Positions 4,578 to 34,042 of a stretch of DNA of 50,501 nucleotides are shown one piece after another; the first letter of the stretch is position 1, and each line of letters opens with the position of its first letter. A model generated the notes under the pieces. The model worked only from the letters and a program-made list of their open reading frames with translations, did no database searches and was not told the DNA's origin. The position numbers and the translations under genes were made by a program. The DNA comes from a virus: IMG/VR virus record IMGVR_UViG_3300005253_000162, positions 1-50,501 of that record; one strand, given 5' to 3'.

Positions 4578-4796
4578 ATGTTCGAAATTGGAGATAATGT
4601 AAAAGTAATCTGCACCAGCCCCGCAGTGTATCGCGATAAACAAGGTACAGTTTACGAAATAACACTGCAAGAGACTAGGGTTAGCTTCATGAATTCAGAG
4701 TTTACCCTCACTATTCTGGATAACGCTTACGCCAACGAAGATGATGACCATTGTCATTTAGTTTGGTTCGCGAATAACGAGCTAACTCTGATATAA
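4578..4796 (+). CDS. Small SH3-like domain protein
   Basis: A 72-residue protein that is one copy of the repeated domain: MFEIGDNVKV at the start, DKQGTVYEI, VSFMNSEF, and HLVWFANNEL at the end. It has a strong AAAGGAGG site and is the first gene of the P2 unit. It is closest in layout to the second domain of the protein at 9492. Function unknown. Confidence 0.75.
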   Translation: MFEIGDNVKVICTSPAVYRDKQGTVYEITLQETRVSFMNSEFTLTILDNAYANEDDDHCHLVWFANNELTLI

Positions 4797-11498: not shown

Positions 11499-11526
11499 AT
11501 TGGAGAATAGCCTTTGCAAGTTGGAT

Positions 11527-19065: not shown

Positions 19066-19176
19066 ATGCGAAAATTATTTAACTTCCTTTGGGCTTGGTC
19101 CACGGTACGATTTCTTTTAGCCATGCTCATTGGTTATTATCTAGCTGAAATTACAAGGAGCCTAGGATTCTTATGA
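19066..19176 (+). CDS. 36-residue membrane peptide
   Basis: A short frame from ATG 19066 with a basic and aromatic N-terminus (MRKLFNFLWAW) and one hydrophobic segment. Its stop overlaps the next start. No clear ribosome site, so support is moderate. Confidence 0.45.
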   Translation: MRKLFNFLWAWSTVRFLLAMLIGYYLAEITRSLGFL

Positions 19177-19598
19177 CTGAAAATGAAGACATATATAAAA
19201 TTACTGCGTCAAAAATTTACGGCGTACCTGTTGAAGAAGTAACAGAAGAACAACGTCAAAAAGCAAAAGCGATAAGTTTTGGATATTTATATCAAAGTTT
19301 ACCTGAAGACGCAATACAAATAGCTCGTGATGAATTGATAAATACACTTTCAAAGATGACTGGAGCAATGGAAAGAGCAAACGAAGCGATGTTCCAACAC
19401 TTTGCGGAATGGTTTGAAGAGCTAATTGAACTAATAAAACCCATAGTGATTATATTTCAACGAGCTTATTTGTACTCACAATTGTCGAAATATTTACCGG
19501 ATAAATTAGCGATATTTATATCCGAAAAATGTCCTGTTCGGTGGCTACCCACAATTACGGAAAAACGGGTACATTCATTACAAGAGGAGTTAGAGTGA
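19173..19598 (+). CDS. Protein with a family A DNA polymerase O-helix segment
   Basis: A 141-residue protein. Residues 5-45 read like motif B of DNA polymerase I: DIYKITASKIYGV, EEVTEEQRQKAKAISFGYLY, with the conserved Arg, Lys, Phe-Gly and Tyr in register. The final Gly of FGxxYG is Gln. The palm motifs A and C are absent and the rest is helical. The window's own polymerase (32222-34042) has a different motif B sequence, so this is not a recent copy of it. It could be a polymerase mimic or a domain relic. Confidence 0.65.
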   Translation: MTENEDIYKITASKIYGVPVEEVTEEQRQKAKAISFGYLYQSLPEDAIQIARDELINTLSKMTGAMERANEAMFQHFAEWFEELIELIKPIVIIFQRAYLYSQLSKYLPDKLAIFISEKCPVRWLPTITEKRVHSLQEELE

Positions 19599-20476: not shown

Positions 20477-20959
20477 ATGGCAGAAAAATCCACCGCGATT
20501 GCGGACAAAGCAAAAAAGAAAGAAAGTACACGTCGTAAGTTCCGGGACGAAAACTGGACGGAAGAGCAGGTTATTGCTCGACGTGCGAAACTAACCGTAA
20601 AGGAACTTCCTGAAGGTTGGATTAAACTCGCACATGTAGCAGACGTCTTTCGCGAGAAGAAAATTGCAGTTTCTCGCCTTGTGCGTGCGACTGGCGGTGA
20701 CAGAGGTATGTATCCGCCCAAGGATCCAGTTTTCCGGATCGTATACTTCAATGGCGCACGTTACTTGCATCCAGATGTCCTTACCGCAGGTATCAGTCTT
20801 ATGGCTGATCCAAACTACGGTAAAGTTCCCCGCAAAAAGAAAGCCAAAACAGACAAAGCAGCGAGCAAAACTTCGAAAAAGAAAGCTGCTCCGCAAGCGA
20901 AGAAAGCCACGGTTAAATCCGTTGGACGTCCGAGTCCTCTTCAAGGACAAAAAGGTTAG
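20477..20959 (+). CDS. Paralogue of the 2568/10974 family with a histone-like basic tail
   Basis: A 160-residue protein with an AAAAAGGAG site. Residues about 40-115 match the family core: PEGWIK, VSRLVRATGGDRGM, ARYLH. It lacks the zinc finger. The N-terminus and the C-terminal 45 residues are very rich in Lys and Ala, like histone H1 tails, which points to DNA binding. It stands alone behind its own promoter. Confidence 0.75.
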   Translation: MAEKSTAIADKAKKKESTRRKFRDENWTEEQVIARRAKLTVKELPEGWIKLAHVADVFREKKIAVSRLVRATGGDRGMYPPKDPVFRIVYFNGARYLHPDVLTAGISLMADPNYGKVPRKKKAKTDKAASKTSKKKAAPQAKKATVKSVGRPSPLQGQKG

Positions 20960-21046
20960 GCTATTCATTCAATGGTTCTTGGGGTTTTTTTACCTTCCTT
21001 TCCCCATCTGGTTTGCGCCAAAGAACTGTTGAATTTAAGCGCCGAT

Positions 21047-21110
21047 GGGCAGCGGCATATAAAATCTACCGATCTATCATGTGCAGATCATCAGTTGTGG
21101 TAGACTGCCC
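21047..21110 (+). ncRNA. Candidate structured RNA element
   Basis: GGGCAG (21047) pairs with CTGCCC (21105); TCTACC (21065) pairs with GGTAGA (21099); GATCT (21071) pairs with AGATC (21085). The two outer stems are contiguous on the 3' side and separated by a 12-base bulge on the 5' side; a 9-base bulge separates the inner stem. The nested 17-bp arrangement is unlikely to be chance. No U-run follows, so it is not a terminator. Confidence 0.55.
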
Positions 21111-21222
21111 AAAACTTTATTTATTACACCGAGGACAGAATGTAAAGTGTAGGTGTGATAAAATTCGATCTAGTCCTAGACTAGCATAAGATCAATGCAA
21201 AGTCACGACAATAAGATCGAAG

Positions 21223-21291
21223 TTTGTCAGAGGTGCAATGGAAGCACACTACAATAGGTAGAGGTGCAGGTTCGAGTCCTGCCTGACAAAT
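21223..21291 (+). tRNA. tRNA-like element with truncated anticodon arm
   Basis: An 8-bp acceptor stem (TTTGTCAG with CTGACAAA), a canonical D arm (GTGC, loop AATGGAA, GCAC) and a canonical T arm (GCAGG, loop TTCGAGT, CCTGC) are present. The anticodon arm is only 13 nt (CTAC, AATAG, GTAG), four short, and lacks U33, so no anticodon can be named. CCA is not encoded. It is probably not a decoding tRNA: a decayed tRNA, a mimic or an attachment-site relic. Confidence 0.55.
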
Positions 21292-21356
21292 TTCTTGGAC
21301 ATGCTATTTCACTAACCGTATCTGGCAGTTCGGGCTTATAGACATGTTCAAGTTCT

Positions 21357-21391
21357 GGGGCAAGCTGGATAGTTGGTATCTTGCTTGCCCC
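21357..21391 (+). promoter_or_regulatory. Leader hairpin before the gene at 21421
   Basis: GGGGCAAGC and GCTTGCCCC form a perfect 9-bp stem with a 17-base loop, ending 18 bases ahead of the AAAAGGAGG ribosome site. There is no U-run. It may protect the mRNA end or mark a processing site. Confidence 0.5.
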
Positions 21392-21420
21392 TATGACTAT
21401 ATACAAAAGGAGGCTCTAGT

Positions 21421-21690
21421 ATGTCATACATTCAATTTCAACCAAAAGAAGATATAACTGCATTTGAAGTAGCTAACTGCGTCAATATTGTTGCTTGGGG
21501 TTTAGGTGAGGCTATTCAGCGAGGTCACGCAAAAGAGTGGTCGATGGAGAAAATTTTTCCTGGTTATACTGTAAACTATATGACTGAACTGATTGAGAAG
21601 TTTCATCTAGAACGTCACTTTGAAATTTCCCCTGGCGAGCAACCAATTATTGTAGAAGTAAAAAGAGGCAACTGGCTAGAATCTACATAA
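21421..21690 (+). CDS. Hypothetical protein
   Basis: An 89-residue alpha/beta protein with a strong AAAAGGAGG site. No family recognised. Its stop overlaps the start of the SWIM gene by one base. Confidence 0.65.
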   Translation: MSYIQFQPKEDITAFEVANCVNIVAWGLGEAIQRGHAKEWSMEKIFPGYTVNYMTELIEKFHLERHFEISPGEQPIIVEVKRGNWLEST

Positions 21691-24181: not shown

Positions 24182-24256
24182 CGTATTTTTCTCCTTGGGT
24201 AATTTTTTGTACCGCCAGGTAAACCATACATCAACACAGCCAAACAGCACCGCTAT

Positions 24257-24281
24257 ACGCTTCCCTAGGCTTCTAATTGGG
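24257..24281. repeat. 25-bp intergenic repeat, copy 1
   Basis: ACGCTTCCCTAGGCTTCTAA followed by TTGGG matches 24 of 25 positions at 27346-27370. Both copies lie between leftward genes in the same orientation. The core GCTTCTAATTGGG also occurs inverted inside the lipoprotein gene near 22605. Confidence 0.75.
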
Positions 24282-27263: not shown

Positions 27264-27345
27264 AAATACTCCTTTTTGCCTGATGGCAAAATGTGCCCTG
27301 GCCAGGCCCAAAACCCCTAATCGTAGCCAAAAACAAGCGCCCTGT

Positions 27346-27370
27346 ACGCTTCCCTACGCTTCTAATTGGG
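27346..27370. repeat. 25-bp intergenic repeat, copy 2
   Basis: Differs from 24257-24281 at one position. Flanked by GC-rich words such as GGCCAGGCCCAAAACCCC, unlike the AT-rich coding DNA around. Lies just beyond the 3' end of the MazG-like gene at 27377. Confidence 0.75.
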
Positions 27371-32221: not shown

Positions 32222-34042
32222 CTATTCTAAATAATGCTCCTTTTTACCGCTGACTTTTTGCAATGTTCCATAGGTTTTGCCTAATTTAACGTCAGTAACA
32301 AATGGAATTGAAAAAATATCTTCTACCTGCATAATTTCTGAAATGTTTTTTGAGCATTCCTCTGTTGAGTTCTCAGGAATTTCTGTAATAATTTCGTCAT
32401 GCACAAAGTTTATGATATTACAGTCATTGCCATACTTATTCAACCATTTATTTACGCGAATTCCCGCAATAGATAGAAGTTCAGCACAACCACCCTGAAT
32501 TTGTGCATTAGCTCCTTTATACATAAATTTTGGATTATCTTCCTTCCAAAGTCTACCGCTCCAATATCTTAAAAATCCTGCCTCTTTACATTGGTCAATA
32601 CGTTCAAATAGCCAAGGTTGAATTCGAGGAAATGCTTTCCAATAATTGTCGCACACGTTAGAAGCTTCAGGAGCAGTCATGTTTAATTTAAACATCAATG
32701 AACCAATTGTCATACCATAAATCAATCCAAAACTAATTGTTTTACTCCATTCACGATGAACCTTATCACGAACACCCCAAACTCGCTCAGCAATATCCGC
32801 ATGTATATCTTTGCCAGCTGCCAAAGAATCTAACATGAACGGGTCCTCTGATAAGATCCCAAACATTCGCATTTCCATTTGCTTGTAGTCTACTGCGAGA
32901 AATATTTTTCCCTCCGGCGCTATAAACGCTTTTCGTAAATTATATTCATCAGTACGTTTTGTTTCACCCGTAAAGATACTTTGTGTAAATCTACCTCTAT
33001 GGTCGCTCGGCACGTTCTGCATATTCGGCTTAGACGAACTTAGTCTACCAGTACGTGTTCCTGTTAAATTAAAATTCGTGTGTACTCTATTATTGTCATC
33101 CATCAATTCAAGATACTTTTTCATGGTAGCTCTCATACGGTGTGATTCGCGTAAAGCACCTATTAAAGTTCCTAATGGATGATGCACTTTTTCTGTTAAC
33201 AGAAACATACTGGTACAAGTAGATTTATATAAACCTGCATCTGCAAATTTACTGCGGTCAACACCATCTGAGTCTGCAAATGGATTTTTAGGCTTTTCTA
33301 TGCCTAGATCGTCATAAATCGCTTTGCTTAATTGTTGATGTGAACGCCAATTGAATGTATAACCTATTGAGTCATATAAACGCTCCTCCAATTTAAGAAG
33401 TGTTACGTCCTGTAACACAATTCCTTTCTCCAAAAACTCTGGATCCATTTCTATACCATGTCGTTCCGTTTTCCATAAGACTTTCAAATATTGCATATCC
33501 TTGATAAAAATATTCCATAGACCCCACTTTTTTACTCTTGATGCAAGTTCTGTAAAAAGTTGTTCTGTAATTAGTACATCATTACAAGCGTAATCAGCAA
33601 CAACTTCTAAAGGCCAATTGTGAATTTTTGTACGCACAGGCGCTTGCAGGATGTGATCTCGTTTACTATCCTCGCCAAGAAAAATTGCTTCTGCTGTTGC
33701 CAATGCCTTTTTGTTTCGACTATCTAGTAAATGAATTAAATCAGTCGTATCGTAAATATTCCAAGCTAGTTTTTCAGGATTAGCGTTCAAAAAATGAAGA
33801 TCAAATTTTGCATTATGCATGATTACATTTGTATCAGGCGCTAATTCTTGAAATACACCGTATGCGTCTCTACGTTCCTGCTCAGTTAACGTAGGTAGAT
33901 AACCATGAATATTTTCTTGCGGACAATAAACAGCCACGCCTATTATATGATTATGCGGCCATAAGAGACCATTAGTTTCAGTATCAATTGTGACCCATTT
34001 ACCTGAGCATCTTGGAATATCGGATAGTTTCAATAATTTCAT
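32222..34042 (-). CDS. Family A DNA polymerase with 3'-5' exonuclease
   Basis: A 606-residue replicative polymerase. Exonuclease motifs: DTET (D20, E22), HNAKFDLHFL and YACND. Polymerase motifs: DYKQMEMRMFGILSED (A), SKTISFGLIYG (B) and FVHDEII (C). There is no 5'-nuclease domain. The start overlaps the upstream stop (ATGA). Confidence 0.95.
   Translation of the reverse strand: MKLLKLSDIPRCSGKWVTIDTETNGLLWPHNHIIGVAVYCPQENIHGYLPTLTEQERRDAYGVFQELAPDTNVIMHNAKFDLHFLNANPEKLAWNIYDTTDLIHLLDSRNKKALATAEAIFLGEDSKRDHILQAPVRTKIHNWPLEVVADYACNDVLITEQLFTELASRVKKWGLWNIFIKDMQYLKVLWKTERHGIEMDPEFLEKGIVLQDVTLLKLEERLYDSIGYTFNWRSHQQLSKAIYDDLGIEKPKNPFADSDGVDRSKFADAGLYKSTCTSMFLLTEKVHHPLGTLIGALRESHRMRATMKKYLELMDDNNRVHTNFNLTGTRTGRLSSSKPNMQNVPSDHRGRFTQSIFTGETKRTDEYNLRKAFIAPEGKIFLAVDYKQMEMRMFGILSEDPFMLDSLAAGKDIHADIAERVWGVRDKVHREWSKTISFGLIYGMTIGSLMFKLNMTAPEASNVCDNYWKAFPRIQPWLFERIDQCKEAGFLRYWSGRLWKEDNPKFMYKGANAQIQGGCAELLSIAGIRVNKWLNKYGNDCNIINFVHDEIITEIPENSTEECSKNISEIMQVEDIFSIPFVTDVKLGKTYGTLQKVSGKKEHYLE

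Follow-up and report, generated by a model that had tools for sequence, protein, structure and literature searches.

The window, a virus record of 50,501 bases analysed here at its full length, comes from a tailed phage that encodes a family A DNA polymerase, a TOTE-type primase, a helicase and siphovirus-type tail proteins, and it carries at positions 21224-21290 of the + strand a genuine tRNA fold that is unable to decode. Phage genomes repeatedly show tRNA-like elements in which the anticodon arm is clipped, and this element is one of that recurrent class. Its best explanation, which we favour tentatively and at somewhat less than an even chance, is that of a non-decoding mimic resembling the t-elements of plant mitochondria and recognised by RNase P and RNase Z. 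On the wider proposition, that many phage lineages encode tRNA mimics with the anticodon removed and a short capped hairpin in its place, selected for a non-decoding role, often within tRNA or small-RNA clusters and with the window element as one of them, we consider the case evenly balanced.

The element lies in a gene-free locus of 461 bp (20960-21420, + strand) between a 160-aa gene without a family match (20477-20959) and a gene at 21421-21690, both on the + strand, and the only ORFs inside it, of 25-59 aa, are not credible. The 3' end of the slot is marked by a SWIM zinc-finger gene (PF04434; 21690-21965, + strand). The preliminary description had seen this region as filled by RNA structures, which proved real in aggregate: the whole 461 nt folds with a z of -4.8 on the + strand and -3.5 on the - strand, and the tile 21161-21390 ranks first by structure among the 219 tiles of the genome (230 nt each, presumed coding strand; z -6.69). 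Hairpin c (21164-21221; TTCGATCT/AGATCGAA with inner stems; z -4.5 over 21163-21222), which abuts the tRNA-like element, is beyond chance on its own, as are the 3' hairpins e (21294-21352; CTTGGACATGCTAT/ATAGACATGTTCAAG) and f (21357-21391; GGGGCAAGC/GCTTGCCCC), taken jointly over 21292-21398 (z -4.6), all on the + strand. Hairpin f has no T-run 3' of its stem and was not called a terminator. On the same strand, hairpins a (21047-21110; GGGCAG/CTGCCC, inner TCTACC/GGTAGA; z -1.3) and b (21120-21162; TTTATTACACC/GGTGTGATAAA, 11 bp; z -1.6) are within chance when taken alone, and the first of these, previously singled out as a nested 17-bp hairpin, is no evidence by itself, its minimum free energy (MFE) fold being a different one. 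No promoter was seen at the locus, and the Gamma RNA motif was absent from the window.

Elsewhere in the window, further strongly structured 230-nt tiles are those at 11501, 16101, 13801 and 4601 (z -4.8 to -5.3). The first 45 or so residues of a 141-aa ORF at 19173-19595 match the DNA polymerase family phrog_17, making it a second, partial polymerase copy beside the one at 32222-34042, and two stretches of about 40 bp, 24242-24281 and 27331-27370, repeat each other in direct orientation with 88% identity.

A covariance search, proposed in the preliminary description, matched the Rfam tRNA model RF00005 at 21224-21290 with a score of 48.5 bits, the cut-off being 29 (E 2e-7 for the whole window), and the element's MFE fold coincides with the cloverleaf (z -3.1), bearing out the earlier reading of perfect acceptor, D and T arms with a shortened anticodon arm. 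The acceptor TTGTCAG/CTGACAA forms all seven pairs, the D arm is GTGC-AATGGAA-GCAC (4/4) and the T arm GCAGG-TTCGAGT-CCTGC (5/5), so that a canonical elongator body is present, with a 7-bp acceptor, a 4-bp D stem, a 5-bp T stem and a TTCRA loop. The remaining bases comprise A8, G9, A26, a variable region AGGT and A73, CCA is not encoded, and the elbow positions G18-G19, T54-A58 and 15/48 (A-U) are unexceptional. Position 8, usually U, is A here; A8 occurs in 3 of 98 normal phage tRNAs and in none of 53 short ones. What the element lacks is the canonical anticodon arm, in which a 5-bp stem carries a 7-nt loop that includes U33 and an anticodon that can be read. In its place stands CTAC-AATAG-GTAG (21249-21261, + strand), a 4-bp stem with a 5-nt loop, 13 nt in all against the usual 17; this cap hairpin alone is not significant against shuffles (P 0.27). 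A 7-nt loop could be had only by shortening the stem to 3 bp, and it would lack U33, so that decoding by the element is implausible. ARAGORN called neither a tRNA nor a tmRNA in the window.

Several known kinds of tRNA-like RNA were compared with this fold. The earlier suggestion of selenocysteine-type geometry does not hold, as there is no RF01852 match and the variable region has 4 nt and the D stem 4 bp, against the long variable arm and 6-bp D stem of the selenocysteine tRNA; the possible eighth acceptor pair (T21223-A21290), considered as a sign of that geometry, is position -1 paired with the discriminator base. Neither Rfam nor ARAGORN gave a tmRNA family match to the element. A tmRNA-like or suppressor-like tRNA that can be charged with an amino acid is a very improbable reading: the alanine, serine and leucine synthetases of E. 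coli work independently of the anticodon and would not need one, but the third acceptor pair is G-C rather than G-U, the long variable arm is missing, and tmRNA and selenocysteine matches are lacking. YrlA, a bacterial Y RNA (RF02553), is likewise a tRNA-like module without a decoding role, but neither a long Ro-binding stem nor, in 20900-21450 at E up to 10, an RF02553 match was found. MALAT1 mascRNA (RF01684) and viral tRNA-like structures achieve processing or mimicry through a tRNA-like fold; they too gave no match in the window and are unrelated to it in sequence and host. Bacterial tRNAs with 4-bp anticodon stems have been described in a study that excluded elements without an assigned anticodon (PMC13092985), and the window element shares their 4-bp stem but has a loop of 5 nt, no U33 and no anticodon.

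The viral collection was scanned for elements of this kind with a D-loop pattern ATGGNAGNNC and a T-loop pattern GGTTCGANTCC separated by a D-to-T gap of 14-22 nt (25-26 in ordinary tRNAs), which returned at least 120 viral contigs, 119 matches being analysed. Membership was defined by at least six of seven acceptor pairs, four of four D pairs, five of five T pairs and a gap of 14-22, and the window element has 7/7, 4/4, 5/5 and a gap of 21, the mode of the short class. Intact folds made up 45/119 among the viral matches listed and 6/117 in bacterial and archaeal genomes (Fisher 3e-10), several of these six being copies of phage ones; the class counts are approximate, as L138 and L186 have ordinary 5+7 arms and should not count and L181 and L204 are borderline. 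Decoy positions never reached six or seven acceptor pairs; of the 53 short elements whose D and T stems are intact, 40 did. When the gap was left open, ordinary tRNAs dominated and short ones came to about 1% (1 of 100 intact folds). The clipped arms are mostly small capped hairpins, of at least 3 bp in 35/40 (p 0.007 against shuffles). Some members sit within large tRNA clusters and others stand alone, and one is carried, unannotated, by a named phage, Lactobacillus phage JNU_P2 (45317-45387). Near-identical anticodon-less tRNA-like elements at L162 and L167 lie directly upstream of a gene whose protein reads as a putative TnpB-like transposon product.

By a simple ORF rule, the downstream ORFs run in the same direction as the class elements in 17 of 19 cases, and at L137 a start codon stands 3 nt 3' of the acceptor. 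Both observations would suit a cis-acting leader structure that controls the downstream gene without a separate RNA product. We regard such a leader as improbable, because the members differ in their downstream genes and the conserved bases of the T and D loops point to tRNA-type recognition.

The clearest indication of upkeep comes from one member family, here called X, which occupies the same slot in three phage tRNA clusters (L203, L215 and L201), preceding tRNA-Met and tRNA-Ser(gct) in all three and following tRNA-Trp in L203 and L215. All 19 of its pairs are kept in the three phages, while all seven acceptor pairs have changed on both sides, an outcome matched by none of 500 shuffles; the D arm and a CCC/GGG cap are invariant, as is most of the T arm. 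The Rfam tRNA scores of X, 47.9 (L203) and 50.4 bits (L201), bracket that of the window element. The retention of pairing while the acceptor sequence changes shows that the family is under selection and marks X as a maintained, non-decoding tRNA mimic. Further conserved stretches that are not tRNAs, for example GTCCGTACAT...CAACGGAC, lie beside X in the same clusters (L203 8600-8990, L215 420-785, L201 12300-12640) and gave no Rfam match above threshold.

That the acceptor of X is free to change argues against an aminoacylation identity or a single specific target and for recognition by shape. This bears on the idea that the elements are decoys or sponges, either for host tRNA-binding proteins or for tRNA defences directed at the acceptor, elbow or variable region, while being immune to anticodon nucleases. 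The intact elbow and acceptor and the missing anticodon loop would fit such a role; phage tRNAs are known for changes in the anticodon loop that are predicted to let them escape anticodon nucleases (PMC10264068), and other defences cut tRNA elsewhere, such as Septu, which cuts tRNA-Tyr at the variable loop (PMC13096335). The freely changing acceptor of X leaves no fixed target, however, and a single copy per genome would be a weak sponge, so that we think a decoy unlikely and place it after tRNA-gene decay among the rivals. The preliminary description had conceived of the window element both as a tRNA mimic and as a bait for tRNA-cutting defences; its intact arms, its membership in a recurrent class and the compensatory change in one family speak for the non-decoding mimic, whereas the bait for anticodon nucleases falls away, since the element offers such enzymes no anticodon loop.

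A different picture emerges from a series of elements upstream of the terminase gene (TerL; L485-L500), which runs from a full tRNA (L496) to clipped elements (L494, L485), one with a broken D arm (L493), an acceptor and T arm only (L491/L492), and finally half an acceptor (L495) or nothing. Along it, the acceptor and T stem outlast the D and anticodon arms and the T-stem pairs still covary; as a set of sequences, the series would also fit stepwise decay of a tRNA gene. An attachment site was considered for these elements on account of the conserved 3' half and judged doubtful, as they lie by the terminase. The class as a whole thus comprises both maintained and decaying elements, and the placement of the window copy is uncertain because it has no diverged homologs. 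Its sole close relative, IMGVR_UViG_3300005663_000148, shows 100% identity wherever the two were compared (18896-44042) and is therefore uninformative as to selection on the window copy. Searched at the nucleotide level against 50,697 phages, the 461-bp region gave no matches other than those at chance level or in the T arm.

For the window copy, the strongest competing reading is a recently damaged ordinary tRNA gene, in which a deletion of about 4 nt took the anticodon and the remainder has not yet decayed. Polymerase searches placed the phage in a family at 42-60% identity, four members of which (G002, G005, G011, G015) carry an ordinary tRNA-Arg(TCT), two of them with tRNA-Met(CAT) as well. 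These ordinary genes have the acceptor, D and T arms and the elbow bases in common with the window element, which differs from them in having neither the 7-nt anticodon loop nor an anticodon. Damage is also suggested by the TerL series, by A8 in the window copy and by perfect acceptors being rarer in short elements with intact arms (26/40) than in ordinary tRNAs (86/96; p 0.001). Yet every arm of the window copy is perfect and its remaining bases fit no obvious parent anticodon. The relatives' tRNA-Arg(TCT), moreover, adjoins the primase gene, a different slot, which rules it out as the direct parent. The long upkeep of the anticodon-less state in X and the far greater frequency of clipped elements among the viral matches listed than among cellular ones also count against damage, and we rate it as possible but doubtful.

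The slot itself can be followed through the family by its flanking genes. Homologs of the 160-aa gene are present in G004, G005, G006, G007, G011, G015, G019, G021 and G029, and those of the SWIM gene in G004, G005, G011 and G015, with one also read in G021. Between the two, the slot measures only about 60-90 bp in G004, G005, G011 and G015; in G021, whose polymerase is about 54% identical, it extends to about 870 bp, contains no gene and is crowded with hairpins (z -8.0, 20 shuffles). It holds no tRNA-like element, and sequence homology between its cluster and that of the window was rejected, there being none beyond chance (best E 0.05). Two members of the family have thus had an RNA cluster in this slot, and the content of the clusters differs.

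Other small RNAs were noted in these relatives. A compact RNA of about 65 nt, made up of an outer stem and an inner hairpin and having a core GTGAGTNCCAGTCCTGCAACCC that hardly varies, occurs at L085 (about 1615-1682), L087 (about 1583-1640), L567 (about 715-790, - strand) and L577 (about 4600-4680, - strand), the only four contigs of the viral collection that match the pattern. Three belong to the family of the window phage, where the RNA stands beside tRNA-Arg in two and in the RNA slot of G021, and the fourth is a GC-rich phage contig without detectable tblastx similarity to the window; Rfam gave no match in the two loci scanned (L085, L087). In G011, a tRNA-like element at L113 position 3910, whose acceptor, D and T arms are all perfect, has a long variable arm and an anticodon loop of 6 nt, CTTCAA (TCA-like), and was called by neither ARAGORN nor the Rfam search. 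In G002, a degenerate 94-nt tRNA-like element (L092 1501-1594) directly precedes tRNA-Arg and scores 20.5 bits as tRNA, overlapping a YrlA match of 27 bits, both below threshold; as three extra bases separate its T arm from the acceptor and its D arm is weak, it was treated as degenerate and does not count as support.

A close known parallel is offered by the t-elements of plant mitochondria, tRNA-like sequences that are cut by RNase P and RNase Z, CCA-tailed and left uncharged (PMC11658184). Like these, the window element is a non-decoding tRNA-like fold beside mRNAs, lying between co-directional genes. The phage elements differ in being carried by bacteriophage genomes and in having the anticodon arm clipped to a capped hairpin, and their processing is predicted. 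RNase P recognises its substrates by the acceptor-T stack and the T/D elbow and can do without the anticodon arm (PMC4975455), and as the parts kept in the phage elements are those read by RNase P and kept in t-elements, a t-element-like processing signal or stabiliser is favoured. The RNA cluster would be transcribed rightwards together with its neighbouring genes, and the element, retaining the acceptor-T stack and D/T elbow with the anticodon arm reduced to a short capped hairpin, would be recognised within the polycistronic transcript by host RNase P and RNase Z and possibly by the CCA-adding enzyme. Cleavage at its ends may then punctuate the transcript, or set free the structured RNAs and mRNA on either side and stabilise them. 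The analysis establishes the fold, the missing anticodon, the recurrence in phages and the selection on one member family; engagement of host tRNA-processing enzymes is plausible, and transcription, processing and purpose are inferred. We count in favour of the mimic its three perfect arms, the tRNA-grade score, the recurrence of the class, family X, the longer survival of the acceptor and T stem, features that RNase P reads, in the TerL series, the co-directional ORFs and the structured slot of G021, and against it A8, the lack of a homolog beyond the identical contig, the fit of the TerL series to decay, the lack of a visible promoter and the absence of a tRNA-like element from the slot of G021.

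We found no description of anticodon-less phage tRNAs in the open-access full text searched, a partial coverage that leaves room for an earlier description; the nearest approach was the study of tRNAs with 4-bp anticodon stems (PMC13092985). Such elements have probably been missed since gene finders skip them or mark them undetermined. The presence of tRNA genes in phages has long called for an explanation, the usual ones being codon supply and the replacement of cut tRNAs. Where the tRNA body is kept and the anticodon gone, neither explanation is possible, and anticodon-less elements thus separate the tRNA as decoder from the tRNA as shape. If made and processed, they would give direct access to the study of RNA processing or tRNA mimicry in the course of infection. 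Their recurrence in unrelated phages, together with their upkeep in one family, suggests that phages use them for something besides translation.
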